NCBI GenBank assembly: GCA_020186115.1
Contig: WSYJ01000001.1
Location: 744,001-808,000, forward strand
DNA: 64,000 nt
DNA from: Histomonas meleagridis
Taxonomy: Eukaryota; Parabasalia; Tritrichomonadida; Dientamoebidae
Direction of reading: 5' to 3'
The stretch's first letter is position 1. Every line of letters starts with the position of its first letter. The notes below the pieces were generated by a model. It had not been told where the DNA came from, did not search any database, and worked only from the letters and a program-made list of their open reading frames with translations. Made by a program: the position numbers and the translations under genes. This document shows, piece after piece, positions 38,400 through 63,006 of this stretch.

Positions 38400-39688
38400 T
38401 TAGTTTTTATTATTATTTTTAGTTTCAATTATAATTATATCTTGACAATTTGATGGCGGTGGTTTTACACCAAGCTTATTAATAATAATTTGAACAACTT
38501 CAATATTATTCTTTCGAGAAGCAATAGTAAGTGCGGTATTAAAACATTTGAATAAATTTTAAATAACATTTTGAAATTTTATATAATTAAAACATACTCT
38601 CTAATAAATGAATAAACATCTTCTTGTTTAATATTAATTCCATTTTGATTAACTAGTAATTCAACTGTATTATAATGTCCATTTTTAGCTGCTTTCATTA
38701 AAGCAGTTTTAAATTATCACAATAAATTCCATATAAAATTTAATAAATATCAAATTATGTAAATATATATCATATAAAATAAATAAATATCTTGAGCATT
38801 AATATCAAGTGAATCCTTTTTAACAATTTCCCTAACAATATCAACATAACCATATTTAGAAGCTAACATAAGTGCTGTTTCAGAACAATCAAAAAAATTC
38901 CAAACATTAATAAAAAACATTAAATATATGAAATAAATATTTAAAAAATTATTGATACATCTTTAGCATTTACATATATTGAATGTGTACTACAAAGAGC
39001 TTTAACAATATCAGTAAATCCATAAGTTGAAGCTATCATTAACGCAGTCGAAAATCATTTGAATAAATTCCAAATATGTTATTGAAATATCAAACTTTAA
39101 AGTGAAATACTGATATGATTTTATAAACATTTACATCATTAATATTAATATCACCTTGGTCAATTAGTAATACAACAATGTCTTTATGGCCAAAGAATGA
39201 AGCTAACATCAATGCATTCCAAAATCAAAGAATTTGATTCCATATATAATTTTGAAACTTTAAATTTGTTAAGTAAACGTTAAATTGATTAAAATAACAT
39301 TTTTTATCGTAACATCTGTGTCTTGAAGTTGAATAAGTAGTTCAGCAAATTCTGTTTTTCCTTTTTCAGCAGCATTCATAAGAGCTGTATCAAAAGATTT
39401 GTGTGAATTCCAAATTGGAAAGTAAAATTCTGAAAATTTTAAAAAAACATTAAAAAAAATATTAAAACATCTTGAATATTAACATCAATACCTTTTTGTT
39501 CAAGAAGTGCTTTTCCAATGTCAGTATAACCTTCATGTGCTGCCCAAATAAGAGCTGTTTCGAAAAATTTTGAACATCTCCATTTTTAATTGTAAAATAA
39601 CGTATTTTTTGTTTACATCAAATATTTCCTGCTGGGTTTGCCATTTAAGAAAATTGGTAAATTGTTGAACTGGATCAGTTGAAGACAT
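38400..39688 (-). CDS. Ankyrin-repeat protein encoded in eight blocks separated by 58-81 nt spacers
   Basis: The first block (39688-39617) reads MSSTDPVQQFTNFLKWQTQQ and ends at Asp24. Six blocks of exactly 90 nt follow: 39558-39469, 39388-39299, 39218-39129, 39048-38959, 38878-38789 and 38707-38618, each an ankyrin unit such as TALMLASKYGYVDIVREIVK ending LDINAQD. The last block (38537-38400) holds a final half repeat and the tail KPPPSNCQDIIIIETKNNN then stop. No block has a stop or frameshift although the repeats differ widely, so the gene looks maintained. Removing the spacers gives one 249-residue frame. In the spacers the ankyrin frame is broken, so they must be skipped; they look like introns but lack trichomonad splice signals. 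An initiator-like TCATT lies ten bases upstream. Ankyrin proteins bind other proteins; the partner is unknown. True block edges may include a few spacer codons. Confidence 0.7.
38538..39616 (-). other. Seven intron-like spacers of the ankyrin gene
   Basis: Spacers, with lengths: 39559-39616 (58), 39389-39468 (80), 39219-39298 (80), 39049-39128 (80), 38879-38958 (80), 38708-38788 (81), 38538-38617 (80). Six start with GT on the coding strand (GTAAAC, GTTTTA, GTTATT, GTTTAT, GTATCA, GTTTAT) and one with AT. Most carry TTTGGA or a close form so that its last base lies exactly 20 nt before the next ankyrin block, even in the 58-nt spacer. They do not end in a constant AG and lack ACTAACACACAG. 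The lengths cover all three values modulo 3, which only fits removal of the spacer from the message. Confidence 0.6.
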
Positions 39689-40941: not shown

Positions 40942-43900
40942 ATGAATGAAAAAGATCTTCTGGATAGAATTTATATAAAGAATAGACCTCAAACAGTTTC
41001 ACATGGGTTAAGGCCAAAAAATCCCAGCCAAATATCACCAACTTTAACAACAAGAAAAAATAAATCAAATCAAAACAATTTTAATGGGGTTTCAATTCCC
41101 ATGTTATCAATCCCCAAAGATCCCAAACAATCTAATTTAACTTCAGCAGATCGACCAGGAATTTCAGTTCGAAGAGTTAAAACAAATAATCGATCAAATA
41201 ATGAAAATAACACAACTATTTCAAGGCCACACACAGCAATTCCTTCAAATCAACAAAGCCATCTTTTATCTCCTATCAGAAATTCACGTTTTCCAACTTT
41301 AGATGGTACAACAAATATAGACAGATCACAAAATTCTACATCCAACAGTAATAGATTTAAGCCAGATCGTCCACAAACATCATTTAATAAGACAATACCA
41401 AAAGGTTCAGAATACATAGTTACACCAACGCAATCAGTTTTTCATTTAAAGAAGTCAAATCTATCAGCTCGAGCACCAGATTCATTAGAACAATTCAAAA
41501 ACGACCCACTTTATTCCTCGATTATATCAGATGAATTATGGAATGATCAAAAATATATTTTTTATTATATTCGATTAATACGACAAAAACGCCTTGAGCA
41601 AGAATTTCTTTATTTTGAAACTGAGCCATCAACTGATAAAGAACCGGAGAATGTATATCTTTTACATATAATTTCACCATCTGAAGTTAATTGGAACAAA
41701 TATTACACATTAAGTTATGAAGGTATTACATCAAACATTGAACGTAAATCAGAGTTTTGTCCATTACAACAATGGGTACGCGAATGTACATTATATATTC
41801 AAACGAAAGAAAACAAATTTTTCAAGCGATATCAACAATGGCGTGCATTTTCATTAATATATCGAATAACGAAAAATCGAATGTTATTCAATTCTAAGTC
41901 TAAAATATCATTATCGTTATTTCATGTTGATGAAACATTACGTAAAGCGATTTTAGTATTACAACGCTGTTGTGAAAGTTTACAAAAGCTTTCATTAGTT
42001 GATGTATTATCAAGTCAAACATTAACATTAAAACAATTCATCCAAAAACAATATGATCATGAAACGAAAGTCTCCAAGTTAATAAATGATTTAATAGAAG
42101 AAGCACGAATTGCAATTGTACAAGCGTGTGATTATTCATATGAATTAACAGGTACAATGGATTCGATAAAACCTAAAAAAGAAAACAAAAAGAAAAATGA
42201 GAAGAAAGAAAAACGGAATATAAAATCACGATTTAATAATGATAAGAAAAAGAAAATAATTATATCGAATGACATGATGGTTTATACTCAATTAGCAACG
42301 CAAAACTTTTGTATTAAAAGACTTGCTCGATTTATTAAATTATGTGATTATAAATTAATACATTCATTACATACATTTACTGTAGAAAGTTGTAAACAAT
42401 TAGTTGAGTTCTTAACACCACGAATAGATTCATCTGGTGGTGATATTACACGATTAAAAACAGAAGTTATTATTAATTCTAATAAATTAGGATTTTCACC
42501 ATCAGTTAAAGAAATGGAAAATGAAATTATATTAATATGGCAACATTTATTATCAAGTATTTATAGAATTCAAACGTTTTCGGAACATCAATCTTTAACA
42601 CAATATTGTCCACAAAAGAAATCTAGAAAAGGTGATAATTCATTAGTATCACTTGTAGAAATTATACAAAAAGATAATTTATATCAAAAGTTATCAAAAG
42701 ATTTAATTAATAATATTGAAACAGCTTATAAATTAGCGGATGAAAAACTTTTATTATATCAACCACATTTTGAAAATTATTTAATAAATATTAAATTTAA
42801 TGTACATGAAATTCAAGAACAAAATCCTAATGCCGAATTTTATAATAATGCAATTCATCAATATCAACAAGAAATACAAAACATTGATTCATTACAAACA
42901 TCTATACAAGTTCATATGTTATTAATTCAATTATCGAAGTTTTGTGATCGAATTAAACCAACACCACGTAAATGTCTTGAACAATTATATTCTATTATAC
43001 CATTAATAGCCGAAAATAAAGTTAATGCATTAACACAACAATTAAATGATGCATTAACTATACTTCATACTGAACCTAATGATGTACATTCATTTGTATC
43101 AACATTAGAATTTAGACGAAAACTTACAAAAGATTTCGATCAAATTCGTAAAGATTATGCTGAAACTTCTGCTTTTTATACATTAATAAGTGATAATAAA
43201 ATTACTACTTCAGAAGATTCAATAGTTTCATTTCGTGCTTTAGCTCCATTAATTGGTAATTTAGAAGCTTTAATAATATCGACTAAAGAAGATGAAGAAA
43301 ATAAAATACAAAAATGGAAACCAAGTTTACAAAACTTATTAGTAAATGTACGAAAAGAATTACTTGATATCCATTATAAAACTAATGATGCTAAAGTACT
43401 TGATAAAGATAGTAATCCTGATGAAGTTATTAAATATTTAATTAATTGTCAAAATGAAGTTAATGAATTAAGTAAAAGATGTGAACAAATTCAAAGTTAT
43501 CAAAAATCATTACAATTAAAAGTTTCTCCAATTGATGAGCTAACTGAAACATCAGTTGACTTAGATAATAAACTTTTATTATGGAAATCACATAAAGAAT
43601 GGAAAGAATTAATTACAAAATGGAATCCTACACCATTTAAATCGATTAAAATTGAAGAATTTAATGACGGAATTCAAAAGTTTACTCGTATCGCTTCACA
43701 ATTATCAACTTCTTTACCAGAACATCCTTTAGTACCAATATTTAAATCATCAGTATTTAAATATACTGAAATATTACCAGTGATTATCGCATTATCTAAT
43801 CCATGTTTAACATCTATACATTGGAATAAAATCGAACGTATTACAGGTGTAACAAAACTTCAAGAAACTAATTATCCATTAATTTATTTAATCGATAAAC

Positions 43901-46900
43901 AATTTTCTTCATATTCCGAAGCAATTGAATCCATATCAAATGATGCATCTAATGAAACATCATTACTTAAAATGCTTCGTGAAATTGAAAACACTTGGGA
44001 TAAGATTGATTTACAAATTATTCCACATAAAGAAAAGAAAGATTTTTATTTAATTGGTGGTATTGATGAAATCACCGAAACATTAGAAGAGACACAAGTA
44101 CAACTTTCTACAATTAGAAGTTCACGTTATGTTGGAGCAATTAAAACACAAGTTGATGACTTAAGTAAGTCGATGAATTTATTAGGAAAATGTTTAGAAA
44201 ATATTTCAGTGTTTCAAATTGCTTTTAATTCATTAAGTAAAATATTTTCATCATCTGATATCCAACGAGAATTAGCTACACAATCAAAAGAATTGTTTGT
44301 TATCGAGCGACAATTTAAAACTTGGGGTCAACATGCAAGAGATTCACCACGTGCATTTAAGTTATGTTCTAATCCTAAAGTATTACAATTATTTGATGGC
44401 TGGTTAGAATCAATTGAGAAAATACAAAAAGATTTGGAAGAATTTTTACAAAAGAAAAGAACTGCTTTTCCAAGATTTTATTTCTTATCAAACGAAAACT
44501 TACTCAAAATCTTCGCAGAAGCAAGAAATCCAAAAGCTGTACAACCATTTTTACCAAAACTTTTCGATGGTATTCATACATTAGAATTTTCTCCAAATGG
44601 ACAAGATATCTTAGCAATGTATAGTGTTGAAGGAGAAAAAATTTCATTATCGAAATGCCAATCAATTGGTGCAATAGAAAATTGGTTAAATAATTTAGAG
44701 AAATCAATGAAATTAACTTTACATCATTTATTTAAAGATGGTTTAAATGCTTATATTACAATGTCTCGAATAGATTGGATACAAAAACATTATGCACAAG
44801 TAATATCAGTTATATCACAAATAAAATTTGCACAAAATGTAGAAGAAGCATTAATATCATCAAATCCTTTAGAATCATTAAAGAATTTAAATGAACAAAT
44901 GAATCAAAATTTATCTGATTTATCAGATTTAGTCCGTTGTCAATTACCACGTTCTAAAAGATCAGCTATAGTATCATTAATTACATTAGATATACATTCA
45001 CGTGATATAATTATTGAATTAATTAATGAAAATGTACAAAGTTTAAATGATTTTTGTTGGGTTAAAAGATTACGTTATTATTGGGATACTGATTTAAATC
45101 GCATCTGTTTAAATCAAGCTAATGCTCGAATAGAATATGGTTATGAATATTTAGGTGCTACTTCTCGTTTAGTCGTAACACCATTAACAGAACGTTGTTA
45201 TTTAACATTAACGAGTGCATTACAATGTTATTTAGGTGGTTCACCAGCAGGGCCTGCAGGTACAGGTAAAACAGAAACAGTTAAAGACTTATCGAAAGCT
45301 GTTGGTAATTTTTGTGTTGTCTTTAATTGTTCAGATGCAGTTACTGTCATCCAAATGGAATCATTCTTTAGTGGGTTATCACAAACTGGTGCATGGGCAT
45401 GTTTTGATGAATTTAATCGAATTAACATTGAAGTCCTTTCTGTTATAGCAGAACAAGTATATACTATACAAAATGCTATAGCTTCACATTTGAAAACTTT
45501 CCAATTTTCTGGACAATTAATACCATTAAATCCTAGAGTTGGTATCTTTATTACAATGAATCCTGGTTATGCAGGTCGAACAGAATTACCAGATAATCTT
45601 AAATCATTATTTAGACCGATATCAATGATGGTACCTGATTATTCGATGATTGCCGAAAATATTTTATATTCAGAAGGTTTTAATAATGCTAAACCTTTAG
45701 CACGTAAAATTACACAATTATATAAATTAAGTTCTGAAATGTTAAGTCATCAAAGTCATTATGATTTTGGTATGCGTGCATTAAAATCTGTTTTAATAAT
45801 GGCAGGTAAATCGAAGCGTAAAACACCTACGTTAAATGAAGATATAATATTAATTAGAGCTATGAAAGATTCAAATGTTTCTAAATTATTAATTGATGAT
45901 TATAAATTATTTAATGATATTATTAGTGATTTATTCCCTGGAGTAGAATTTGAAGAAGAAACATTTGAAGAATTAACTAATGCTATTAATCAAGCTATAA
46001 ATGAAAGAGGATTACAACAATCGAATTATATTATAAACAAAACAATACAATTATATCAAATAATGAATATTAGACATGGTGTAATGTTAGTAGGTCAAAC
46101 AGGTGGAGGTAAAACTACTTCACGAAATTTATTATCAGATGCTTTAGATATATTAAATAAACCTGTAGAACAAGTTGAAGTTAATCCCAAAGCTGTAACT
46201 TTATCTGATCTTTATGGTTCTTATAATTTAGTTACTAATGAATGGAAAAATGGTTTAGTTGGAAAATTCTTTAGTGAAATGTCTGAAGCAGATCCTAATA
46301 TTCAACAATGGATTATATTCGATGGTCCTGTTGATGCTTTATGGATCGAAAACTTAAATACTGTATTAGATGATAATAAGCTTTTATCATTAGCTAATTC
46401 TGATCGAATTAAAATGACTGATCAAATGCATTTATTATTTGAAGTTGGTGATTTATCACAAGCTTCTCCTGCAACTGTATCACGTTGTGGAATGGTATAT
46501 TATCAACCTGAAGATTTAGGTTGGAAACCTTTAATTTATTCTTGGATTAATAATCAGCCTCAAAATGTACATGAAATTTATAAAACAATTTTCGAATCTA
46601 CATATGATAATTCTATAAAAGTTATTACGGATACATGTAAAACTGTTATTACTCCAATTATTTGGAATATTTCTAATTCATTATGTTCTATTATTGATTC
46701 ATTAATTAAAGAACAAAATATTGATATAGAAAATATAGCTAAAGATCAAATCGAAAAAATTATTTATCATATTTATGTCTTTGCATTAACTTGGTCTTTT
46801 GGTTCTATAATTACATTAGAAACTCGTAATGATTTTGACTCATTTTTACGTGAAAACTTTGAAACTAAAATTAATTATCCAAAACGTAAAACACTTTTTG

Positions 46901-49900
46901 ATTATTATTTAGATATTAAAGAATTACGATTTATATCATGGGAAAACATGATAAAGAATGAAGAAAATCAAACTTCATTTATACAAACAAGTGATACAAT
47001 TAAATATTCTTATTTGTTATCAATATTAATACATCAAAAACGACCTGTTTTATTTTTAGGTGAAAGTGGTTGTGGTAAAACTTCAATTATTCAAAACACC
47101 TTAAATAAAGAAATGAATTCGATTTTCTCAATATTATTTACTTTATCTGCTAGAACTTCAATACAACAAATTAAAGAATTAATTGAAAATAAAATGTTAC
47201 ATAAAAGAAAAACTTTATATGGTCCACCTGAAGGTAAATCAGCTGTTTTATTAATTGATGATTTTAATTTACCTCGACCTGATACTTATATGTCACAACC
47301 ACCAATAGAAATATTACGAACTATAATTAATAATAAAGGTATTTATAATACGGATGAATTATATTGGTGTGATATTGAAGATTTAACTGTAATTGCTGCT
47401 GGTATGGAAATTGGTCATGTAACAAAACGTTTTATTTCAAAGTTTTCTATTTTATCTTTACCTTCACCAAGTGATTCAGTTTTAAATTGTATATTTTCTG
47501 AGATATTAAATAAATTTTTAAATAATGGATTTGCAGAAAATATCGTAAATATGTCATCAATGATTGTTAAAGCTTCAATACAATTTTATCGTAAAATTAA
47601 ATTAGAATTATTACCAACACCTTCACGTTCACATTATAAATTTAATATGCGTGATTTATCTAGAATGTTTAAAGGTATTTTATTAACTACAAAAGATTCA
47701 TTAAATGATCCTATTTCATTTATTAAACTTTGGTTCCATGAAAATATTCGAGTTTTTGGTGATAGATTAATTGATGATAATGATCATATTAAATTAAATA
47801 ATACATTATATGATATAGCTAAAACAGAATTACGAGTTAAAGAAGAAATGTCATTTTATTTCGATGATAAACAATTATTAATATGGACAGATATATTAAA
47901 AGGTTATGGATCAACAGTTCATATTTATCAAGAAGCAAATTCTATGTTACAATTAACAGCTTCATTAAATACATTTTCAAATATATATAAAACTTCAATT
48001 ATTTTATTTAAACAATCAATTGAACATATCTTAAGAATAGTTAGAGTAATGAGACAACCTTCAGGACATATGTTATTAGTAGGAATGGGAGGTACAGGTA
48101 AAAGAACTTCTGCTAGATTTGCTGCATTTGTATCTGATATTGAAGTCTTTGAACTTCAACCTACAAAAGATTATAAAATTAATGAATTTCGTAATGACTT
48201 AAAAACAATTTTCAAAATTGCTGGTATTCAAAATAAGCCAATAATGTTTTTATTAAATGATGAACAAATTATCGATGAATCATTTTTAGAAGATATTAAT
48301 AATGTTTTAAATAATGGTGAAGTACCAGGTTTATTTGAAACAGAAGAATTTAATCAATTAATTAATGAATTAGTACCAATGATGAAGAAATCTAATGAAT
48401 CAATTGATTATGAATCATTATGTAAAAAGTTTACTTCAAATATAATGAAGAACTTACATATAGTTTTAGCGTTATCTCCTATTGGTGGAAGATTTAGAGA
48501 TCGATGTAGAATATTCCCTGCTTTAGTTAATTGTTGTACTATCGATTGGTTTGAACCTTGGAATAATGAAGCACTTGAAACAGTAGCTAATGGTTTATTA
48601 AAGAAGATGGATTCATTAAATAAGTTTAATGATCAAATCGAAACAATTTCTAAGTTATCAACTTATGGACATTCATTAGTAGTAGAAATATCCGAAAAGT
48701 TTAAACATGAACTTAATCGAATATATTATGTAACACCTGCAATATACATTGAATATTTCTCTTTATTTAATGATATGTTAAAGAAAAGAATATCTGAAAT
48801 GAAACAAAAGAAAGAACAATTAAAGAAAGGTATTGATAAATTAGCAGGTACTAATAATAAAGTACAAGAAATGGAAGCGGAATTACAAAAGTTAACTCCA
48901 TTACTTGAGAAAAAAGCTAACGAAACAAATGAATTAATGGAAAAACTTAAAGTTGATAAAGTTAAAGTTAATGAAGCACATAAATCAATATCAGCAGAAG
49001 AAGAAATAGTACAACAAGTTCGAACTAAAGCATTAAAACTTGCTTCTGAAGCTCAAGCAGATTTAGATAAAGCGATGCCTTTATTAAACGCAGCACTTTC
49101 AGCTGTTGAAGATTTAAAGAATCGAAAATCCGAATTAGCAGTTGTTAAAACATTTGTAAAGCCTCCACAATTAGTAATCGAAATTATGGAAGCAGTTTGT
49201 TTATTAAATGGTCGAAATGGTGATTGGGCATCAGCTAAATCATTTTTAGCACAAACAGATTTCTTTAATCAATTATTAGAAGTACATAATAAACCTATAC
49301 CAGAATCAACATTAAATTATATACGTAAAATGGCTTCAGATCCTAAATATAGTATTAAAAACGTTGCATCTGTTAGTGAAAGTGCTGCATGTTTATTTAA
49401 ATGGGTAACTGCAATCGAAAAATATGTAACAGAACGTCAACGAATTTTACCGAAACAAAAACGTAGAGATGAAGCTCAAGAAGCACTTAATGAAGCCGAG
49501 AAAAATCTTAAAGAAAAACAAGATGAACTTAAAATTATTTCGGATCAATTAACTAATTTACAAAATCAATTTGATGAAAGTCAAAAACAACAAATCGAAT
49601 TAACAGAAAAAATTAAACAATGTCAATATCGACTTAAGAATGCTTCATTATTAACAGTAGCTTTAGATGATGAACGAATTCGTTGGAAAGAAAATTTAAT
49701 TGAACTTTCTAATTCTAAAAAATCAATTTTAGGTGATACATTATTAATTGTATTTCATATAGCTTATATTGGACCATTTTCATATAATTATCGATCAGAA
49801 ATTATCACTAAAATGATATCTAAAACTAAAGAATTAAATTTACAAATATCAAATAATTTCTCATTAGAAAATATAACAATTTCTCCAGCAACATTAAGAG

Positions 49901-52900
49901 AATGGCAAGTAAATGGTTTACCACAAGATTTATTATCGAAACAAAATGGTGTTTTAGTTACAATGTCTAAAAGATATCCATTATTAATTGATCCTCAAGG
50001 TCAAGGACGAAAATGGTTAATCGAAAATAATCAAGTTAAAACATTACGATCAGATGATCCTAATTATATTCGATCTATTGAGAATGCTATACGTGTAGGT
50101 TCATCAGTATTATTAGAAGATGTTGGAGAAGTATTAGATCCGGGTTTAGATTTTATATTATCTCCTAAAATCCAAAAGAAAAATGGCCGAATTTCGATTA
50201 GAATTGGTAATAAATGGGTCGATAAAGATCCAAACTTTAAATTATATATTACTACGAAACTTAATAATCCAAATTTCTTACCTGATATATTTAATCAACT
50301 TTCAGTAATTAACTTTTCTGTCACGAAAGAAGGACTTGAAGAACAATTATTAAGTGATGTAGTATTACATGAAATGCCTGAATTAGAAAATCAAAGATCT
50401 GAATTAATCATTGAAATATCTAAAGATCAAAAAGCATTAAATGAATTAATGGATAAAATTCTTCATTTATTATTTACTTCTACTGGTAATATATTAGATA
50501 ATGAAACTTTAATTGCGACTTTACATAATGCAAAAGAAACTTCTAAACAAGTAATGTCTAGACTTAAACAATCAGAAAAAACTGAAAAAGAAATTACCGA
50601 AAAAAGAAGTATTTATAATAATGTAGCAGAACGTGGTGCGCTTTTATACTTTGTAATATTAGAATTACCTGGAATTGATTCTATGTATCAATATTCATTA
50701 GAATTCTTCAAGCGAATTTTTAATGAAGTTTTAGTTAATACTGAAGAATGTGAAGATATTCCATTAAAATGTATTAAATATATTAATAACTTAACTTATT
50801 CTACTTATGCTAATGTTTCTAGAGGACTTTTCGATAATCATAGACTTGTATTCTCATTTTTAATTGCTACAAGATTATTAAGAACTACAAATAAAATTAC
50901 TGATGAAATGTGGGAATTATTTATACGTGGACCTAAAGAAATTGATGTTGAACAATTCGAAAAACCTAATTCAAATATCGAAACAAGAATTTGGTCAAAA
51001 ATTTGTTCACTTTCTAAAACGTTTAAAGGACTTGAAACTCATATTAATCAAAATTATAATTTATGGAAACCTTTAATCGAAGAAGATTCAATAAAATTCC
51101 CTTCTCCATATAATAACTTAACAATATTTGAACAATTAATAATAATTTCATCAATATCAAAACGTAAAGTTTCGACTTTAGCACGGAATTTAATTCAAGA
51201 TGAATTAGATGAAAGTTATTTAACTATATCAAATGTAAGTTTAGAAGATCCATTTAATGATACATCGAATGATATTCCATTATTATTTATATTATCACAA
51301 GGTGCAGATCCACGAGAATTACTTGAAAGGTTTGCACAACAAAAAGGTTATTCTAATAAATTAAAAGTAATATCATTAGGTCAAGGAAGAGGCCCTACAG
51401 CAGTTAACATGTTAAAACGAGCCAAAACTAAAGGCGAATGGGTCTTTTTACAAAACTGTCATTTATGTCCATCATTTTTACCCAAACTTGAACATATGAT
51501 TCAAAAGATGTCACGTAAATCATCGACATATCATAAAGAATTCCGATTATTCTTAAGTTCAATGCCAACGAATGAATTCCCAATATTCATATTACGGAAT
51601 TCCATAAAAGTTACAAGTGAACCACCATCAGGAATCCAATCGAACATTAACTTATTAATGAATACTATTAATTCTAAACAATGGGAAAGTGGATCAAAGA
51701 TTCGTCCATGGAAGAAATTGTTGTTTAGTATCGCTGTCTTTCATTCGACGATTCAAGAACGTAAACGTTATGGATCATTAGGGTTTAATAAGATATATGA
51801 ATGGAATCCAAGTGATTTCTTAATATCAATTAAAATGTTACGAATATTTCTAACTCAAAATGATGACTTACAATGGGACGCTTTAAGACAAATGATCGGA
51901 GACGTGATTTATGGCGGAAGAGTGACCGATGATTGGGATCGAAGATGTATGAACTCTTTACTCGATAAGTTTTTATGTAACAAAGCACTCGAAGATGGAT
52001 ATTATTTCGATGAAAATAAGTTATACCCAACAATTCCTTTGTTCTCATACGCTCAAATCCAAAAATTTGTCACAAAGAATTTCCCGATTGAAGATTCGCC
52101 TTCAATATTCGGATTTCATCCAACAGCATTAAACACATTAAATTTACAAAAATCAGAAAATTTAATCGATTTGGTGCTCGCGGTACAACCAAACGAAGGT
52201 AATTCTTCCGTTATGCAAAAAGATGACGAAACTGTTTTGGAGTTAATAAATGAATTGGAATCTCAATTACCAATTGTGATCACAACAAAAAATGCTCACA
52301 AGTCGTTGTTTAAAGAATCGTATGGAAACAAAATGAACTCTTTAACAATAACGTTGTTACAAGAAGTCGATCGTTATAACTCATTACTTAATCTGATACA
52401 TAATTCTCTTGGCTTACTTAAAAAGGCGATTAAGGGAGAAGTACTGATGTCAATCGAATTGTCGGAGTTATACCATAATTTGATTAACAAACAAATTCCA
52501 AAACAATGGGCAAATATATCATATCCATCTCAAAAACCTTTAATCCCATGGTATAAAGACTTGATTAAAAGAATCGATTTCATACAAAATTGGATTAAGA
52601 AAGGTGAGCCAAATGTCTTTTGGTTTTCCGGATTTTATTTCCCGCAATCATTTTTAACAGCAATATTACAAAATCATTCGAGAAAATATTCGGTGCCTAT
52701 TGACACTTTAGAATTCGAGGCTGAAATTATGAACCAAAATAAAGATGATTTCATTAATCAACCAGAAGATGGTGTTTATATCTATGGGTTATATTTCGAT
52801 GGCGCACAATGGGATTTCGAAAATAATTGTTTATGTGATTGTAACTTGAATAATAATAACTATGTCGAAGCACCCGTAATACATTTAATTCCAAAAGTTG

Positions 52901-53082
52901 ATTTTACTTGTCCAAAAGATCAATACTTGTGTCCAGTGTATAGGACTGCTGTTAGAGCAGGTGTACTCTCAACAACAGGGCATTCAACGAATTTTGTGGT
53001 TGCACTAAATATTCCATCCAAAGAAAAACCGAAAAAGTGGACGTTACGCGGCACAGCACTTTTGCTAGAAACACCATTTTAA
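40942..53082 (+). CDS. Axonemal (inner-arm type) dynein heavy chain, canonical
   Basis: 4,046 residues in one frame. Residues 1-160 are a disordered, basic leader with three RPxT motifs. The tail carries YYTLSYEGITSNIE...LQQWVREC, as in single-headed inner-arm chains, and the linker follows (HWNKIERITG; RTAFPRFYFLSNENLL). All four nucleotide sites of the ring are normal: AAA1 GPAGTGKT (1437-1444) with CFDEFNR (1487-1493), AAA2 GQTGGGKT (1718-1725), AAA3 GESGCGKT (2040-2047) and AAA4 GMGGTGKR (2381-2388). The stalk coiled coil and microtubule-binding tip span about 2620-2900 (FVKPPQLVIEIMEAVCLL; TLNYIRKMASDPKYSIKNVAS). AAA5-6 and the C-terminal domain end with CPVYRTAVRAGVLSTTGHSTNFV and PKKWTLRGTALLLETPF, the usual axonemal dynein end. 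It drives flagellar beating. Family firm; the exact orthologue needs a tree. Confidence 0.97.
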   Translation: MNEKDLLDRIYIKNRPQTVSHGLRPKNPSQISPTLTTRKNKSNQNNFNGVSIPMLSIPKDPKQSNLTSADRPGISVRRVKTNNRSNNENNTTISRPHTAIPSNQQSHLLSPIRNSRFPTLDGTTNIDRSQNSTSNSNRFKPDRPQTSFNKTIPKGSEYIVTPTQSVFHLKKSNLSARAPDSLEQFKNDPLYSSIISDELWNDQKYIFYYIRLIRQKRLEQEFLYFETEPSTDKEPENVYLLHIISPSEVNWNKYYTLSYEGITSNIERKSEFCPLQQWVRECTLYIQTKENKFFKRYQQWRAFSLIYRITKNRMLFNSKSKISLSLFHVDETLRKAILVLQRCCESLQKLSLVDVLSSQTLTLKQFIQKQYDHETKVSKLINDLIEEARIAIVQACDYSYELTGTMDSIKPKKENKKKNEKKEKRNIKSRFNNDKKKKIIISNDMMVYTQLATQNFCIKRLARFIKLCDYKLIHSLHTFTVESCKQLVEFLTPRIDSSGGDITRLKTEVIINSNKLGFSPSVKEMENEIILIWQHLLSSIYRIQTFSEHQSLTQYCPQKKSRKGDNSLVSLVEIIQKDNLYQKLSKDLINNIETAYKLADEKLLLYQPHFENYLINIKFNVHEIQEQNPNAEFYNNAIHQYQQEIQNIDSLQTSIQVHMLLIQLSKFCDRIKPTPRKCLEQLYSIIPLIAENKVNALTQQLNDALTILHTEPNDVHSFVSTLEFRRKLTKDFDQIRKDYAETSAFYTLISDNKITTSEDSIVSFRALAPLIGNLEALIISTKEDEENKIQKWKPSLQNLLVNVRKELLDIHYKTNDAKVLDKDSNPDEVIKYLINCQNEVNELSKRCEQIQSYQKSLQLKVSPIDELTETSVDLDNKLLLWKSHKEWKELITKWNPTPFKSIKIEEFNDGIQKFTRIASQLSTSLPEHPLVPIFKSSVFKYTEILPVIIALSNPCLTSIHWNKIERITGVTKLQETNYPLIYLIDKQFSSYSEAIESISNDASNETSLLKMLREIENTWDKIDLQIIPHKEKKDFYLIGGIDEITETLEETQVQLSTIRSSRYVGAIKTQVDDLSKSMNLLGKCLENISVFQIAFNSLSKIFSSSDIQRELATQSKELFVIERQFKTWGQHARDSPRAFKLCSNPKVLQLFDGWLESIEKIQKDLEEFLQKKRTAFPRFYFLSNENLLKIFAEARNPKAVQPFLPKLFDGIHTLEFSPNGQDILAMYSVEGEKISLSKCQSIGAIENWLNNLEKSMKLTLHHLFKDGLNAYITMSRIDWIQKHYAQVISVISQIKFAQNVEEALISSNPLESLKNLNEQMNQNLSDLSDLVRCQLPRSKRSAIVSLITLDIHSRDIIIELINENVQSLNDFCWVKRLRYYWDTDLNRICLNQANARIEYGYEYLGATSRLVVTPLTERCYLTLTSALQCYLGGSPAGPAGTGKTETVKDLSKAVGNFCVVFNCSDAVTVIQMESFFSGLSQTGAWACFDEFNRINIEVLSVIAEQVYTIQNAIASHLKTFQFSGQLIPLNPRVGIFITMNPGYAGRTELPDNLKSLFRPISMMVPDYSMIAENILYSEGFNNAKPLARKITQLYKLSSEMLSHQSHYDFGMRALKSVLIMAGKSKRKTPTLNEDIILIRAMKDSNVSKLLIDDYKLFNDIISDLFPGVEFEEETFEELTNAINQAINERGLQQSNYIINKTIQLYQIMNIRHGVMLVGQTGGGKTTSRNLLSDALDILNKPVEQVEVNPKAVTLSDLYGSYNLVTNEWKNGLVGKFFSEMSEADPNIQQWIIFDGPVDALWIENLNTVLDDNKLLSLANSDRIKMTDQMHLLFEVGDLSQASPATVSRCGMVYYQPEDLGWKPLIYSWINNQPQNVHEIYKTIFESTYDNSIKVITDTCKTVITPIIWNISNSLCSIIDSLIKEQNIDIENIAKDQIEKIIYHIYVFALTWSFGSIITLETRNDFDSFLRENFETKINYPKRKTLFDYYLDIKELRFISWENMIKNEENQTSFIQTSDTIKYSYLLSILIHQKRPVLFLGESGCGKTSIIQNTLNKEMNSIFSILFTLSARTSIQQIKELIENKMLHKRKTLYGPPEGKSAVLLIDDFNLPRPDTYMSQPPIEILRTIINNKGIYNTDELYWCDIEDLTVIAAGMEIGHVTKRFISKFSILSLPSPSDSVLNCIFSEILNKFLNNGFAENIVNMSSMIVKASIQFYRKIKLELLPTPSRSHYKFNMRDLSRMFKGILLTTKDSLNDPISFIKLWFHENIRVFGDRLIDDNDHIKLNNTLYDIAKTELRVKEEMSFYFDDKQLLIWTDILKGYGSTVHIYQEANSMLQLTASLNTFSNIYKTSIILFKQSIEHILRIVRVMRQPSGHMLLVGMGGTGKRTSARFAAFVSDIEVFELQPTKDYKINEFRNDLKTIFKIAGIQNKPIMFLLNDEQIIDESFLEDINNVLNNGEVPGLFETEEFNQLINELVPMMKKSNESIDYESLCKKFTSNIMKNLHIVLALSPIGGRFRDRCRIFPALVNCCTIDWFEPWNNEALETVANGLLKKMDSLNKFNDQIETISKLSTYGHSLVVEISEKFKHELNRIYYVTPAIYIEYFSLFNDMLKKRISEMKQKKEQLKKGIDKLAGTNNKVQEMEAELQKLTPLLEKKANETNELMEKLKVDKVKVNEAHKSISAEEEIVQQVRTKALKLASEAQADLDKAMPLLNAALSAVEDLKNRKSELAVVKTFVKPPQLVIEIMEAVCLLNGRNGDWASAKSFLAQTDFFNQLLEVHNKPIPESTLNYIRKMASDPKYSIKNVASVSESAACLFKWVTAIEKYVTERQRILPKQKRRDEAQEALNEAEKNLKEKQDELKIISDQLTNLQNQFDESQKQQIELTEKIKQCQYRLKNASLLTVALDDERIRWKENLIELSNSKKSILGDTLLIVFHIAYIGPFSYNYRSEIITKMISKTKELNLQISNNFSLENITISPATLREWQVNGLPQDLLSKQNGVLVTMSKRYPLLIDPQGQGRKWLIENNQVKTLRSDDPNYIRSIENAIRVGSSVLLEDVGEVLDPGLDFILSPKIQKKNGRISIRIGNKWVDKDPNFKLYITTKLNNPNFLPDIFNQLSVINFSVTKEGLEEQLLSDVVLHEMPELENQRSELIIEISKDQKALNELMDKILHLLFTSTGNILDNETLIATLHNAKETSKQVMSRLKQSEKTEKEITEKRSIYNNVAERGALLYFVILELPGIDSMYQYSLEFFKRIFNEVLVNTEECEDIPLKCIKYINNLTYSTYANVSRGLFDNHRLVFSFLIATRLLRTTNKITDEMWELFIRGPKEIDVEQFEKPNSNIETRIWSKICSLSKTFKGLETHINQNYNLWKPLIEEDSIKFPSPYNNLTIFEQLIIISSISKRKVSTLARNLIQDELDESYLTISNVSLEDPFNDTSNDIPLLFILSQGADPRELLERFAQQKGYSNKLKVISLGQGRGPTAVNMLKRAKTKGEWVFLQNCHLCPSFLPKLEHMIQKMSRKSSTYHKEFRLFLSSMPTNEFPIFILRNSIKVTSEPPSGIQSNINLLMNTINSKQWESGSKIRPWKKLLFSIAVFHSTIQERKRYGSLGFNKIYEWNPSDFLISIKMLRIFLTQNDDLQWDALRQMIGDVIYGGRVTDDWDRRCMNSLLDKFLCNKALEDGYYFDENKLYPTIPLFSYAQIQKFVTKNFPIEDSPSIFGFHPTALNTLNLQKSENLIDLVLAVQPNEGNSSVMQKDDETVLELINELESQLPIVITTKNAHKSLFKESYGNKMNSLTITLLQEVDRYNSLLNLIHNSLGLLKKAIKGEVLMSIELSELYHNLINKQIPKQWANISYPSQKPLIPWYKDLIKRIDFIQNWIKKGEPNVFWFSGFYFPQSFLTAILQNHSRKYSVPIDTLEFEAEIMNQNKDDFINQPEDGVYIYGLYFDGAQWDFENNCLCDCNLNNNNYVEAPVIHLIPKVDFTCPKDQYLCPVYRTAVRAGVLSTTGHSTNFVVALNIPSKEKPKKWTLRGTALLLETPF

Positions 53083-53784: not shown

Positions 53785-54560
53785 TGTTCTAAATCATATA
53801 AATAATTTCCAAATATTATTTTGAAATTTTAAATTATTAATATAAATTTTCAATAAAATAAATAAATATCTTTGGCATTGACATCAATTCATTTTTGTTG
53901 AAGAAGTAATTTAACTATTTCTGTACGACCTTTTTCAGATGATAAAATAAGTGCTGTATCAAATAATTTAAATAATTTCCAAATATTATTTTGAAATAAG
54001 AAATTATTAAAATAAATTTTAAATAAAACAAATAAATATCTTTAACATTAATATCAGTTCCTTCTTGTTCAAGAAGTAATTTAACTATTTCTGTATGACC
54101 ATTTTCAGATGCATAAATAAGTGCTGTAAAAAATAATTTAAATAATTTCCAAATATTATTTTAAAATATTAAATTATTAAAATAAATTTTCAATAAAACA
54201 AATAAATATCTTTAGCATTAATATCAATTCCTTCTTGTTCAAGAAGTAATTTAACGATTTCTGTATGACCATTTTCAGATGCATAAATAAGTGCTGTATT
54301 AAATAATTTAAATAATTTCCAAATATTATTTTGAAAATTTAAATAATTAAAATAAATTTCAAATAAAACAAATAAATATCTTTAGCATTAATATCAATTC
54401 CTTCTTGTTCAAGAAGTAATTTAACTATTTCTGTATGACAATTTTCAGATGCATACATAAGTGCTGTATCAAATAATTTAAATAATTTTTAAATATTATT
54501 TTGAAATATAAAATTATTAAAATAAATTTTAAATAAAACAAATGAATATTTTTAGCATTA
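53785..54560 (-). repeat. 170-bp tandem units: ankyrin block plus 80-nt spacer
   Basis: Equivalent positions recur at 53875, 54045, 54215, 54385 and 54555, each 170 bases apart. Every unit is a 90-nt ankyrin block (TAL...NAKD) and an 80-nt AT-only spacer starting ATTTATTTGTTTTATTT-like on the coding strand and carrying TTTGGA at spacer positions 55-60. Exact spacing with scattered base changes shows tandem amplification without indels. Confidence 0.85.
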
Positions 54561-55276
54561 ATATCAATTCCTCTTTGCTTTAAAATGTAACAAGTTCAAT
54601 ATTTCCTGAAAATGAAGCAAAAACTAAAATATCTTCTGGAATTTGATTATTTTTAAGGAAATATTTTACAAGAAAAATATTTCCAATTTTTGCTGCTTTA
54701 TTAATGATATTTTTATTAATTTTCATTCCTTCTTTTTCTAAATATGTAAAAATTTCATAATTAAAATATGAAACACATATTTCTCCTAATTCTTTTAAAT
54801 TATTAATATCTTCAATTTTATTTTCATAAAGATGATAAAAGATATTATTTCGATGAAATTCAATTGCTGTTTTATATGCATCTTCAAATGATGAATGATT
54901 TTGTTCACATAAATGAATAATTTCTTCATTTCCACCTGCAACTGCATATTTACCTGTGTTATCTATTTTAGAACCATTCATAAGTAAATATTTAAAACAT
55001 TTAACTGATCCAAAAAATGCTGCATAATCAATCAATGTAACATTTTCTTTATTAATAAATGACCATCTTTCATAAATTGATTTTGGAATTATTTGATTAT
55101 AATCGAATTCATTTTGTGATGATATTTCTTGTAGTTTCTCTATTTCATCATTTCGAATTATTTTTGCAATTTCATTTGGATTAACTCCTTCTTTAATTAA
55201 TTGCTTATGAAGTGCAAAATCATTCTTCGAAAGTTTTTCATAAGAAATATTTTCTTGATCAAATAAATATTTATTT

Positions 55277-55293
55277 TATATATATATATATAT
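55277..55293. repeat. (TA)n microsatellite at a frameshift point
   Basis: Seventeen bases of alternating TA inside the ankyrin pseudogene, exactly where its reading frame shifts. Dinucleotide slippage would produce such a shift. Confidence 0.85.
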
Positions 55294-55927
55294 TCATCTG
55301 ATTTATCTTGATTAATATGAACAAAAAATGGTTCACATATATTTTGGATGATTTTTGATTCAATTAAATTATACTTAATCATATAATTAAGTAAATAAAA
55401 TGATTCTTGCGTGTGTTTTTTAAGTAGAAATTGAGAAAATAAATTTATTATTTTTGAGTTGATCTTATTATTTTCTTCAAATTTTTCAATTTCTTGTAAT
55501 AATCTCAAATATATATCAAAATTATTACTATTAATCAAAAGATATGTATATATCATTCGGCATATAATGATATCATAAGATATTGAATATTTTTTACAAA
55601 ATTTGCTGAGGGTAAAATTTGATGATTGAGCAAAATTATCTATATTCAAACCAAAGATTATGTTTTTAAGCGTTGTAAATGTTTCCCATTCGTTTTTAGA
55701 TTTCTGATTTATTGTTGCTGTTTGATTTTGAATCATTTAGAAAAATAGAAGGTTCGTTAGCAGGGTTGGCCCACAATTGATCGTTTAATTTTCGATACGA
55801 GTCACTTTTTTATCGATAAAAACCGACCAACAACGGTTTGAATCTAGATAAGTTATAAGACTAAGTCAATAGGAACGATACTAATGTTCTTTGTATCACG
55901 AAATTTTTGAATGGTTTTTAATCGACC

Positions 55928-55980
55928 AAAACCGTTTATTTATTGATACAATCGATCGATATTGATAAATAAACGGTTTT
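55928..55980. repeat. Inverted repeat with two divergent AATAAACGGT motifs
   Basis: Perfect 16-bp arms at 55928-55943 and 55965-55980 (AAAACCGTTTATTTAT and its complement) around a 21-base loop that itself holds the palindrome ATCGATCGAT. Each arm contains the AATAAACGG core found in front of several genes here. The surrounding 55741-56000 has no gene. Confidence 0.75.
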
Positions 55981-56059
55981 TATTGATGTTAAATCGAAAA
56001 AATTGCCTAATTATTAAAACATATTCCAAATTATTAAAACATATATAAAATTATTCAAA

Positions 56060-56945
56060 TGAATATTTTTTGCATTAACATCAATTCCTTTATCTAAAAG
56101 TAATTTTACTATTTCTATATTATTATTTTTAATTGCTATATGAAGTGCTGTTTCAAATTATTAAAACATATTCAAAATTATTAAAACATATTCTCAATTA
56201 TTAAAATGAATAATTCCTGCATTAACATCAATTCCTTTTTGATCTAAAATTTATTTCACAAGTTCAGCATTTCCTGATACTGAAGCAAATGGCAAAATGT
56301 TTTTTGGGGTTTGATTATTTTGAAGGAAATATTTAACAAGATGTGAGTTTTCGTTTCTTGCTGGTTCGTTTTTACAAGTATTAACATCAATTCCTTTTTC
56401 TTCCAAAAATGTCAAAATATCATAATTATCTTTTTGAATACAAAAACTTACCAAATCATTAGTTTTATCTTCAGACATTTTTGGTATTGATTGTATTTTT
56501 TCTGATTTATTCTCAAAAATATATTAAAAATATCATTTTGGTGTAACATAATTGCTGTTTCATATGCATCTTCAAATGATGAATGGTTTTGCTCACACAA
56601 ATGAATAATTTCTTCATTTCCACCTGCGTTTGCATATGTCTGTGTTTTCTGTCTTTATACCATTCATATGCAAAAATTTAAAACATTTAACAGATCCAAA
56701 AAATGCTGTATAATCAATTAATGTAACATTTTCTTTATTAATAAATGAACATCTTTCATAAAGTGATGGTTGAATTGTTTGATTAAAATCAAAATTTGTT
56801 TGTGATGATATTTCTTGAAGTTTTTCTATTTCATCATGTCGAATGATTTTTACAATTTCATTTGGATTATGTCCTTCTTTAATTAATTTCTTATGAAGCT
56901 GCCAATCATTCTTTGAACATTCTTCATAATTTTTTTTGAATATAT
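56060..56945 (-). pseudogene. Decayed ankyrin-family copy
   Basis: Upstream end near 56945 reads NDWQLHKKLIKEGHNPNEIVKIIRHD...SFINKENVTLIDYTAFFGS, matching the copies at 55.2 and 62.5 kb. After that it breaks repeatedly by frameshifts and stops. An open part at 56478-56251 reads NYDILTFLEEKGIDVN and NSHLVKYFLQNNQTPKNILP. One ankyrin block remains at 56151-56065 (TALHIAIKNNNIEIVKLLLD), preceded by a spacer of about 60 nt. This spacer is built from 20-bp repeats of the AAATTATTAAAACATATTC type and differs from the 80-nt spacers of the other copies. No N-terminal start is seen. Confidence 0.7.
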
Positions 56946-60296: not shown

Positions 60297-63006
60297 TTAT
60301 ATAACTTTAACAATTTCTGTATTACCCTTTTCAGATGATAAAATAAGTGCTGTATTAAATGATTTAAATAATTTCCAAATATTATTTTGAAATATTATAA
60401 TGATTAAAATAAATTTTAAATAAAACAAATAAATATTTTTAGTATTAATATCAATTCCTTCTTGAACAAGAAGTAATTTAAATATTTATGTCTGATCATT
60501 TAAAGATGCCAAAATAAGTGCTGTTTTAAATAATTTAAATAATTTACAAATATTATTTTGAGATGTCAAATTAATAAAATAAATTTTGAACAAAACAAAT
60601 AAATATTTTTAGCATTAGTATCAATTCCTTCTTGTTCAAGAACTAATTTAACTATTTCTGTATGACCATTTCTAGATGCATAAATAAGTGCTGTATCAAA
60701 TAATTTAAATAATTTCCAAATATTATTTTGAAATATTAAATTATTAAAATAAATTTCAAATAAAACAAATAAATATCTTTAGCATTAATATCAATTCTGT
60801 TTTGTTCAAGAAGTAATTTAACTATTTCTGTATTACCATTTCTAGATGCATAAATAAGTGCTGTATCAAATAATTTAAATAATTTCCAAATATTATTTTG
60901 AAATATAAAATTATTAAAATAAATTTTAAATAAAACAAATAAATATCTTTAGCATTAATATCGATTTCTTCTTGTTCAAGAAGTAATTTAACTATTTCTG
61001 TATAACCTTTTTCAGATGCAAACATTAGTGCTGTAAAAAATAATTTAAATAATTTCCAAATATTATTTTGAAATAAGAAATTATTAAAATAAATATTAAA
61101 TAAAACAAATAAATATCTTTAGCATTAGTATCAATTCCGTTTTGTTCAAGAATTAATTTAACTATTTCTGTATGACCATTTTCAGATGCATACATAAGTG
61201 CTGTTTTAAATAATTTAAATAATTTCCAAATATTATTTTGAAATATCAAATTATTAAAATAAATTTTAAATAAAACAAAAATATATCTTTAGCATTAATA
61301 TCAATTCCTTCTTGTTCAAGAAGTAATTTAACTATTTCTGTATGACCATTTTCAGATGCTCTCATAAGTGCTGTATTAAATAATTTAAATAATTTCCAAA
61401 TATTATTTTGAAATATCAAATTATTAAAATAAATTCTAAATAAAACAAATAAATTTCAAATAAAACAAATAAATTTTTTTAGCATTAATATCAATTCCAT
61501 TTTGTTCAAGAAGTAATTTAACTATTTCTGTATTACCATTTGAAGATGCAATCATAAGTGCTGTATATAATAATTTAAATAATTTCCAAATATTATTTTG
61601 AAATATTAAATTATTAAAATAAATTTCAAATAAAACAAATAAATATCTTTAGCATTAATATCAATTCCTTCTTGTTCAAGAAGTAATTTAACTATTTCTG
61701 TATTACCATTTGAAGATGCAATCATAAGTGCTGTATATAATAATTTAAATAATTTCCAAATATTATTTTGAAATATTAAATTATTAAAATAAATTTCAAA
61801 TAAAACAAATAAATATCTTTAGCATTAATATCAATTCCTTTCTGGTTTAAAACATATTTAACAAGTTCAATATTTCCTGAATTTGAAGAATATATCAAAA
61901 TATTTTTAGGAATTTGGTTATTTAAAAGGAAATATTCGACCAAAAAAATATTTCCAACCTTTGCTGCTTCATTAATGATAATATCATTAATTTCCATTCC
62001 TTCTTTAAGTAAAAATGAAAAAATTTCATAATTATGATATAAAATACATTTCTTTCCTAAAATTGATAAGTCTTTAATTTTCTCAAGTTTGGTCTCATAA
62101 ATATATTTAAAGACATTATTTAAATGAAATTTTATTGCTGTCTTAAATGCATTTTTAAATGATGAATGATTTTGTTCACATAAATGAATGATTTCAATAT
62201 TTTCACCTGCAACTGCATATTTACCTGAATATTTTACATTTGCATCATTCATTAAAAAAAAATTTAAAACATTTTATTGATCCAAAAAATGATGCATAAT
62301 CAATAAGTGAAACGCCTTCATATAATTTATTGATAAATGAGCATCTTTCATAAGGTGATGGTTCAATTTTATTAAAATTAAAATCATTTTGTGAAGATAT
62401 TTCTTGAAGTTTTTCGATTTCATCGTTTCGAATTATTTTAGCAATTTTGTTTTGATTTACTCCTTCTCTAGTATATCTCTTATGAAGTTCCCAATTATTC
62501 TTTGAAAGTTCTTTATAATTTTGATAGATTTCATCCATAAAATAAACATAGTTATAAAACAAATTTTGAATTTTTTCATATGAAGATATGTAATGTGCAA
62601 AATATGCACCCTTTTGGTTTTTTACGATTTCTGGTTTAAGAAAATTATGTTCAATCATATAATTTAGAAGACAATGTGATTCTTGTGTGTTCTTATTAAG
62701 AAGGAATTTTGCAAATTCATTAAAAATTTCTGATTTGATATTCTTTTTTTCTTGAATGATTTTAATTTCATTTATAAAATCTAAATACAAATCAAAATCA
62801 AATATTTTCGTTTTTGATATAACAAGAATAGTGTATATCATTTGATAGAGAATTGGATTCAAAGATAATGGATGGTTCTGATTAAATTTTTTAACTATTG
62901 ATTTTGCTGATTGAACAAGATTTTCTTTATTTAGATCAAAAATAATTTGCTTAATTGTTTGAAATTCCTCCCATTGATTTTGGTTTGTTTTTTTCCCTTC
63001 TTGCAT
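60297..63006 (-). pseudogene. Ankyrin-family protein with a spacer-interrupted array; damaged copy
   Basis: The most complete family member in this cluster. The start is best placed at 63006 (MQEGKKTNQNQWEEF), aligned with the paralogue's start and 12 bases after an initiator-like TCATA; the frame itself reaches up to 63051. The N-terminal helical region (LNKNTQESHCLLNYMIEHNF) leads to the DUF3447-like part (REGVNQNKIAKIIRNDE; LIDYASFFGSIKCFKFF). The frame breaks at a T9 run near 62262-62270, where the paralogue reads CFKYLLMNG, then continues from 62252 (YAVAGENIEIIHLCEQN; NIFLVEYFLLNNQIPKNI). About nine ankyrin blocks follow, separated by spacers of 80 nt, one of 100. A nonsense codon at 60488-60486 and a truncated final block suggest decay. 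A single homopolymer error could explain the first break. Confidence 0.65.
60340..61860 (-). repeat. 170-bp tandem units: ankyrin block plus 80-nt spacer (second array)
   Basis: Equivalent positions at 60609, 60779, 60949, 61119, 61289, 61479, 61649 and 61819: spacing 170 except one of 190, where the spacer (61375-61474) has a 20-bp internal duplication. Units are very similar to the array at 53785-54560, including AT-only spacers with TTTGGA at positions 55-60. The two arrays have been copied from one another or from a common source recently. Confidence 0.88.

Follow-up and report, generated by a model that had tools for sequence, protein, structure and literature searches.

Spacers within a large family of ankyrin-repeat genes of the poultry parasite Histomonas meleagridis are composed mainly of 17-nt segments, each followed by a single codon, and these single codons are under protein-level selection. 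Judged from sequence, the codons must finally be translated, with the intervening 17-mers removed or skipped exactly. The explanation that we consider probable is RNA-level excision of non-canonical 17-nt micro-introns that would lie between single-codon exons. If this is true, it would break assumptions on how small an exon can be, which splice sites are used and how introns are recognised, in a phylum thought to be nearly intron-free, and the thousands of natural variants would allow recognition to be tested immediately.

Single codons inside the spacers

The ankyrin-repeat gene with which the analysis is anchored occupies 38400..39688 on the minus strand of the window, the whole 64,000-nt stretch of DNA that was analysed, with its ATG at 39688 and its stop codon ending at 38400. 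Its layout is as the earlier note described it: an opening block of 24 codons, six blocks of 90 nt and a last block, separated by spacers of 58, 80, 80, 80, 80, 81 and 80 nt. Exon 1, of at least 24 codons (MSSTDPVQQFTNFLKWQTQQEIFD, 39617..39688), precedes spacer 1 (58 nt, 39559..39616), which was parsed by inspection and could hold two 17-mers and eight codons, its borders being ambiguous and its length alone no test; in one such parse, a GGA codon, a 17-mer and a single codon lead up to ankyrin block 1.

The 80-nt spacers are each made of four units of 17 nt plus 3 nt, and the 3-nt pieces correspond to the four hairpin residues (x-x-G-x) of an ankyrin repeat, exactly filling the gap between NAKD and TAL. 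Ankyrin block 1 (TALIWAAHEGYTDIGKALLEQKGIDVNIQD, 39469..39558) is followed by spacer 2 (39389..39468), in which 17-mers at 39452-39468, 39432-39448, 39412-39428 and 39392-39408 alternate with codons for Asn (39449-39451), Arg (39429-39431), Gly (39409-39411) and Asp (39389-39391). Block 2 (TALMNAAEKGKTEFAELLIQLQDTDVTIKN, 39299..39388) leads into spacer 3 (39219..39298; 17-mers 39282-39298, 39262-39278, 39242-39258 and 39222-39238), with codons for Asn (39279-39281), Lys (39259-39261), Gly (39239-39241) and Trp (39219-39221). After block 3 (NALMLASFFGHKDIVVLLIDQGDININDVN, 39129..39218), spacer 4 (39049..39128; 17-mers 39112-39128, 39092-39108, 39072-39088 and 39052-39068) carries Ser (39109-39111), Asp (39089-39091), Gly (39069-39071) and Ser (39049-39051). 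Between block 4 (TALMIASTYGFTDIVKALCSTHSIYVNAKD, 38959..39048) and block 5 (TALMLASKYGYVDIVREIVKKDSLDINAQD, 38789..38878), spacer 5 (38879..38958; 17-mers 38942-38958, 38922-38938, 38902-38918 and 38882-38898) contributes Asn (38939-38941), Asn (38919-38921), Gly (38899-38901) and Glu (38879-38881). Spacer 6, of 81 nt (38708..38788), has segments of 17 nt at 38772-38788, 38752-38768 and 38711-38727 and one of 18 nt at 38731-38748, with codons for Asp (38769-38771), Asp (38749-38751), Gly (38728-38730) and Lys (38708-38710). Block 6 (TALMKAAKNGHYNTVELLVNQNGINIKQED, 38618..38707) is separated by spacer 7 (38538..38617) from the last ankyrin block and the C-terminal tail with the stop (38400..38537); the 17-mers of this spacer lie at 38601-38617 (one GT...AG case), 38581-38597, 38561-38577 and 38541-38557, and its codons specify Arg (38598-38600), Lys (38578-38580), Lys (38558-38560) and Asn (38538-38540), the third place being without Gly. 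The resulting loops are NRGD, NKGW, SDGS, NNGE, DDGK and RKKN. When joined, the gene displays a repeat of about 33 residues, the x-x-G-x hairpin and the TxLxxA helix, and its joined ankyrin part scores 167.7 bits against Ank.

The earlier note gave the block length correctly as 90 nt, but the coding repeat is 102 nt, with four more codons inside each 80-nt spacer. Its account of strongly diverged spacers likewise holds, although the mean pairwise divergence is 42% (38-46%, 10 pairs, five 80-nt spacers) rather than about half. As it had also argued, the spacer lengths modulo 3 rule out simple frameshifting, and something must be removed or skipped; frameshifting and read-through were rejected on the grounds that these lengths fall in all residues modulo 3 and the frames contain stops.

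We extended the analysis to the genome assembly (43.28 Mb, 121 contigs), where an nhmmer profile of the six window units gave 545 matches (E <= 1e-3) spread over the window and another 38 loci. The genome-wide search for blocks with spacers of about 80 nt proposed in the earlier note proved productive, as a strict pattern (GATRTTAATGCT, 66-96 bases, ACAGCWYTWAT) found 1881 matches (931 + 950) versus 0 for a reversed control, and together with the profile matches this indicates that the structure does not reflect chance. Omitting profile matches that start beyond model position 40 left 500 intervals, 496 of them shorter than 400 nt. From the codon counts, 91 of these 496 units were excluded for a stop in the first 90 nt (in the register used) or an atypical block end; 29 of the 33 excluded for a stop are open at another offset, and a window unit that contains a GT...AG 17-mer also belongs to the excluded group.

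In the 335 kept units with 80-nt spacers, none of the 1340 codons at spacer positions 18-20, 38-40, 58-60 and 78-80 is a stop, while elsewhere in the spacer a triplet can be a stop in as many as 92.5% of units. Restricting the count to distinct spacers gave 0 stops in 4x283 codons against 55 expected from independent columns. The third codon specifies Gly in 292 of the 335 units, the first is mostly K/N/D/E/R, the second Y/D/N and the fourth E/N/K/R/D, a composition like that of ankyrin hairpins. Columns 18-20, 38-40 and 78-80 have a variability of 0.29-0.67, like the surface codons of the ankyrin block; columns 58-60 are mostly GGA, and the 17-mer columns reach at most 0.32. A count over the whole genome, in which the final 12 nt of the second 17-mer and the entire third 17-mer were kept constant, gave TAT or TAC as the second codon 352 times and TAA or TAG 0 times, and all 53 occurrences of TGA or TGG are TGG, with TGA at 0. 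A set of 57 rows, picked from 100 listed strict-pattern matches by omitting by hand those inside fetched loci, those of other length and near-duplicates, contains no stop in the first three codons (0/171) and Gly at the third in 51 rows; 15 further distinct 109-nt strings of listed matches have 0/45 stops and Gly in 13. The absence of stops and the ankyrin-type residues thus support reading the 80-nt spacer as 17 nt plus a codon, four times. Retention of 9-nt cores instead of 3-nt codons was rejected by inspection, as one consensus core has an in-frame TAA.

Length classes, genomic spread and annotated proteins

Gains and losses usually involve complete 17-mers and complete codons. Aligned by sequence, 388 of the 405 kept spacers resolve into such units, with lengths of 80 nt (335), 63 nt (30), 83 nt (15), 66 nt (6), 60 nt (1) and 86 nt (1); because 17s and 3s can give any such length, the arithmetic is no test and the argument lies in sequence and codon content. 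The 63-nt spacers are missing the first 17-mer and mostly retain its codon, and the 83-nt spacers have one two-codon exon. Spacers of 100, 60 and 40 nt, equivalent to five, three and two 20-nt units, are also present. The other 17 spacers (81, 71, 78, 84, 82, 75 or 64 nt) require a segment of another length, such as 18, 12 or 8 nt; the commonest is 18 nt, the length seen in the window gene's spacer 6. The parser prefers 17 nt and forbids stops; its classes are therefore illustrations, and the tests are the codon and stop counts.

The strict pattern recovers 246 matches in the local set with 496 delimited units, from which we roughly extrapolate a family of about 3,800 units and 15,000 17-mers, a figure that may be biased, the loci having been chosen by similarity to the window array. 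The fixed words of the pattern have 8 matches in the genome at a distance of 34-64 bases and none at 3-33 bases; no spacer-free copy matches the two exact patterns, so no natural joined copy was found. With frames of more than 120 codons counted, 26 of the 39 sources have an open frame of 337-460 codons ahead of the array. Across the genome there are at least 150 matches to the DUF3447 family (PF11929). One array on the minus strand of C36:311500-321499 contains about 40 units, several near-identical, with 80-, 63-, 83- and 60-nt spacers mixed. Genome-wide matches to PF12796 reveal uninterrupted ankyrin genes, with frames of up to 1578 codons, which coexist with the interrupted family. Very long uninterrupted ORFs, of 3855 and 4046 codons, lie on the plus strand of the window (5075-16642 and 40942-53082).

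Two further arrays lie on the minus strand of the window. The second (60303..61904) has a unit spacing of 170 nt, with one of 171 and one of 190, and loops ENGY, KDGK, NLGF, KYGD, ENGD and KDVK. Its 100-nt spacer at 61375-61474 consists of five 17-mers, the first two identical, with codons E-R-D-G-N, and the 190-nt unit that contains it (61375-61564) looks like the product of a recent duplication of one 17-mer and its codon. The N-terminal DUF3447-type ORF of this array gene (61776-63006) is split into two overlapping ORFs by what aligns as a single extra base after a T run, indicating either a pseudogene or an assembly error. The third array (53790..54633) has loops EKGN, KNGF and KLGD, and a single weak unit match (31.4 bits, 56171..56301, minus strand) lies at the end of a broken N-terminal domain at 56170-56931. 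The stretch 54568-56931 on the same strand holds two broken copies of this domain in addition to that of the second array gene, with several small frame breaks. Several copies have frame breaks of 1-2 nt in the N-terminal domain, given which some family genes are probably dead.

The same architecture is visible beyond the end of an annotated protein. NCBI H. meleagridis protein P0080 is 100% identical over 506 residues to contig C120 and has the C-terminus ...GIDINAQN-I, where the DNA frame (locus L047) stops inside the first 17-mer; parsed by the rule of 17 nt plus a codon, the locus continues from there with four spacers with loops NLGQ, KSDQ, KIDS and NNGK and a TAL block after each. As annotated, P0080 probably represents the first exon only, and the truncation seen in this one examined gene model may extend to much of the family. 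Among 13 PF11929 proteins whose sequences were inspected, the majority stop close to the first spacer or continue into it; in one of them, P0022, a repeat pair is joined by four residues with no insert. The PF11929 proteins P0016, P0017, P0019, P0022, P0040 and P0083, from short ENA contigs and 43-54% identical to the query, end near or run into a similar spacer; their source may be Histomonas or a relative that shares these inserts. In a comparison of the joined product with 5.8 billion proteins, none of the best 120 of 8000 scored exceeded 54% identity, and no joined record of the window gene was among them. The published H. meleagridis genome is described as having 573-638 introns, at most one per gene and in 5.2-5.7% of genes, and neither 'ankyrin' nor 'splic' occurs in the main text of that paper (PMC8529796). 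A search of the open-licence PMC literature, preprints excluded, found no description of such inserts in the text covered.

Sequence and probable removal of the 17-mers

The 17-mers of the 80-nt class begin with a purine in 1312 of 1340 cases, and they follow a separate consensus at each of the four positions, the fourth starting AA in the common consensus. This position specificity indicates that the repeat unit was probably duplicated as a whole. Of the origins that the earlier note had entertained, an introner-like family arising by independent insertion is not supported by tests within this family. A distinct intron class or another means of skipping sequence, either of which may apply, forms the core of the present finding. 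A more divergent set was assembled from 13 spacers (four from L047, seven parsed ones that exceeded a divergence cut-off and two that were added manually from the window). All 52 of its 17-mers start with a purine, half A and half G, with T at position 2 in 94%, at positions 3-4 in 83% and at positions 15-17 in 83-88%; the end is TTT in 34. Their first dinucleotides are AT (25), GT (24), GA (2) and AA (1), such that 49 of 52 have the purine-T 5' start seen in canonical spliceosomal introns, and the share of A does not exceed 62% at any position beyond the first.

Canonical splice ends are nearly absent, as the 1340 17-mers of the 80-nt class include no GT...AG, one AT..AC and none ending in AG, and the 52 divergent ones include a single GT...AG. 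The known trichomonad signals are missing from the spacers, in agreement with the earlier note, and canonical short trichomonad introns were rejected as a candidate, the motif pattern (GTAYGT, 8-38 bases, CTAACACAYAG) having a single genomic match, at C21:116564-116588, which lies in none of the arrays retrieved. In the N-terminal domain, none of 134 alignment jumps in 32 regions measures 17 nt, a count in which a few regions align poorly and nine intact query ORFs are excluded as self-comparisons. A suspected 17-nt insertion near 55.2 kb was discarded when the aligner placed separate 2-nt and 6-nt jumps there.

The near-fixed length of 17 nt, the maintenance of phase 0 throughout and the lack of a standard splice-site consensus would all suit programmed bypassing, with the 17-mers staying in the mRNA and the ribosome jumping each one and decoding one codon between jumps. 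We nevertheless regard this as unlikely. In classical bypassing the tRNA re-pairs with a landing codon like the take-off codon, yet among 1340 17-mers the final triplet matches the codon before the 17-mer in 14 and is TTT in 1209; a gene of 40 repeats would, we infer, need about 160 near-perfect jumps; and single-sequence folds of ten sequences (consensus and window spacers) are weak and differ from one another, which also led us to set aside RNA hairpins. That each spacer of about 80 nt is one intron, as the earlier note had supposed, is scarcely credible. The length is mostly kept, with 335 of the 405 kept units at 170 nt, but the spacer consists of 17-nt segments, four in number, each followed by a codon that is translated, and removal in one piece would discard codons clearly selected as codons and leave 30-residue repeats without a hairpin, lowering the Ank_2 score of the joined window-gene product from 172.7 to 137.7 bits (Pfam).

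Expression of the arrays has itself to be considered, as the first ORF, of about 400 codons, ends in or near the first spacer at many loci and in P0080 and could be all that is made, the arrays being silent cassettes or decaying copies. Averages over blocks and spacers look neutral, in keeping with such silence: between genes, in the largest bin, pS (0.121), pN (0.139) and spacer divergence (0.106) are all similar. Ordinary purifying selection on whole blocks was rejected because pN approximates pS, and the constraint is instead position-specific, with core ankyrin codons nearly fixed, nonsynonymous change concentrated at surface positions and no stop among the micro-exon codons of the counted sets. 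Stop-free codons for ankyrin residues would not persist inside spacers in neutral DNA, cassette copying is left with no spacer-free target site matching the two patterns, and the first block (e.g. NILVFASESGNIELVKYVLKQEG) differs in kind from the array blocks, making silent arrays very unlikely. We read the position-specific change and the absence of stops in micro-exon codons as probable diversifying selection on a binding surface. The chance of an assembly or sequencing artefact is close to negligible: the assembly is from Nanopore data polished with Illumina reads (PMC8529796) and some 1-nt frame breaks lie beside base runs, but an artefact would have to account for thousands of copies with diverged sequence, a position-specific consensus and a coding signature.

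Excision of 17-nt micro-introns, which we infer to occur in RNA and not on the ribosome, would operate as follows. A typical repeat would comprise 34 codons, with the 30-codon helix part (TAL...NAKD) as one exon and each of the four hairpin codons (x-x-G-x) as a 3-nt exon, and a 17-nt micro-intron (purine-TTT ... TTT) would precede each hairpin codon and the next block. The 17-mers would be cut from the RNA exactly, in phase 0 and before translation, yielding an ordinary ankyrin protein. Around two thirds of our confidence in this excision goes to a spliceosome with relaxed site choice and around one third to another excising enzyme. Several observations favour the spliceosome: trichomonads splice (PMC12316389); a pattern search of the genome returned one 25-nt intron-like sequence with perfect motifs; the 5' end is AT or GT in 49 of the 52 divergent 17-mers; and introns of 15-17 nt are described in Stentor (PMC9505925) and mikrocytids (PMC10245619). 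Against it, the lack of AG ends and the 3-nt exons are hard to picture in a standard spliceosome, and another enzyme that cuts and joins RNA is possible. We tentatively entertain, as a minority reading, a dedicated system of excision outside the ordinary spliceosome or of ribosome skipping. It would recognise 17-nt purine-TTT...TTT elements of almost fixed length and eliminate something like 15,000 copies, a very rough figure, within a single protein family, so that isolated translated codons stay behind. Under such a system, diversification of the hairpin codons at the binding surface may be aided by the succession of elements.

Comparison with known systems

Phage T4 gene 60 and the byps of Magnusiomyces mitochondria are translational bypassing elements, with longer inserts and a need for matching take-off and landing codons. 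The Histomonas 17-mers share with them the character of short non-coding inserts within reading frames and differ in being shorter and in lacking such matching codons. Among introns, the closest by descent are those of Trichomonas vaginalis, which belongs to the same phylum and whose introns are also short. These are described as type A (56-196 nt) and type B (23-25 nt), with 63 active, all GT/AG, and with an extended 5' motif and the branch site merged into the 3' splice site, whereas the Histomonas spacers follow neither the GT/AG rule nor the trichomonad motifs; stableri transcripts with three exons are mentioned in the same source (PMC12316389). A departure from the GT/AG rule is shared with the tunicate Fritillaria, most of whose introns break it; these, in contrast, are animal introns linked to a duplicated U2AF, and the fixed 17-nt length and single-codon exons of Histomonas go unmentioned in the Fritillaria abstract (PMC13326754).

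In size, the nearest counterparts are in heterotrich ciliates and mikrocytids. The introns of Stentor coeruleus are described as 15-16 nt long, with splice sites of the type most frequent among eukaryotes and a branch A that usually lies at position 10 in 15-nt introns and at position 11 in 16-nt ones (PMC9505925); the Histomonas 17-mers are similarly tiny, narrow in length range and AU-rich, and unlike them are almost entirely without GT-AG ends and apparently without a fixed A. In Mikrocytos mackini, 224 spliceosomal introns are reported in 179 genes, 217 of them 16 nt long and seven 17 nt (PMC10245619). The near-fixed length at the same extreme and the conserved sequence are common to both systems, and what sets the Histomonas 17-mers apart from mikrocytid introns as described is their occurrence in runs with putative single-codon exons.
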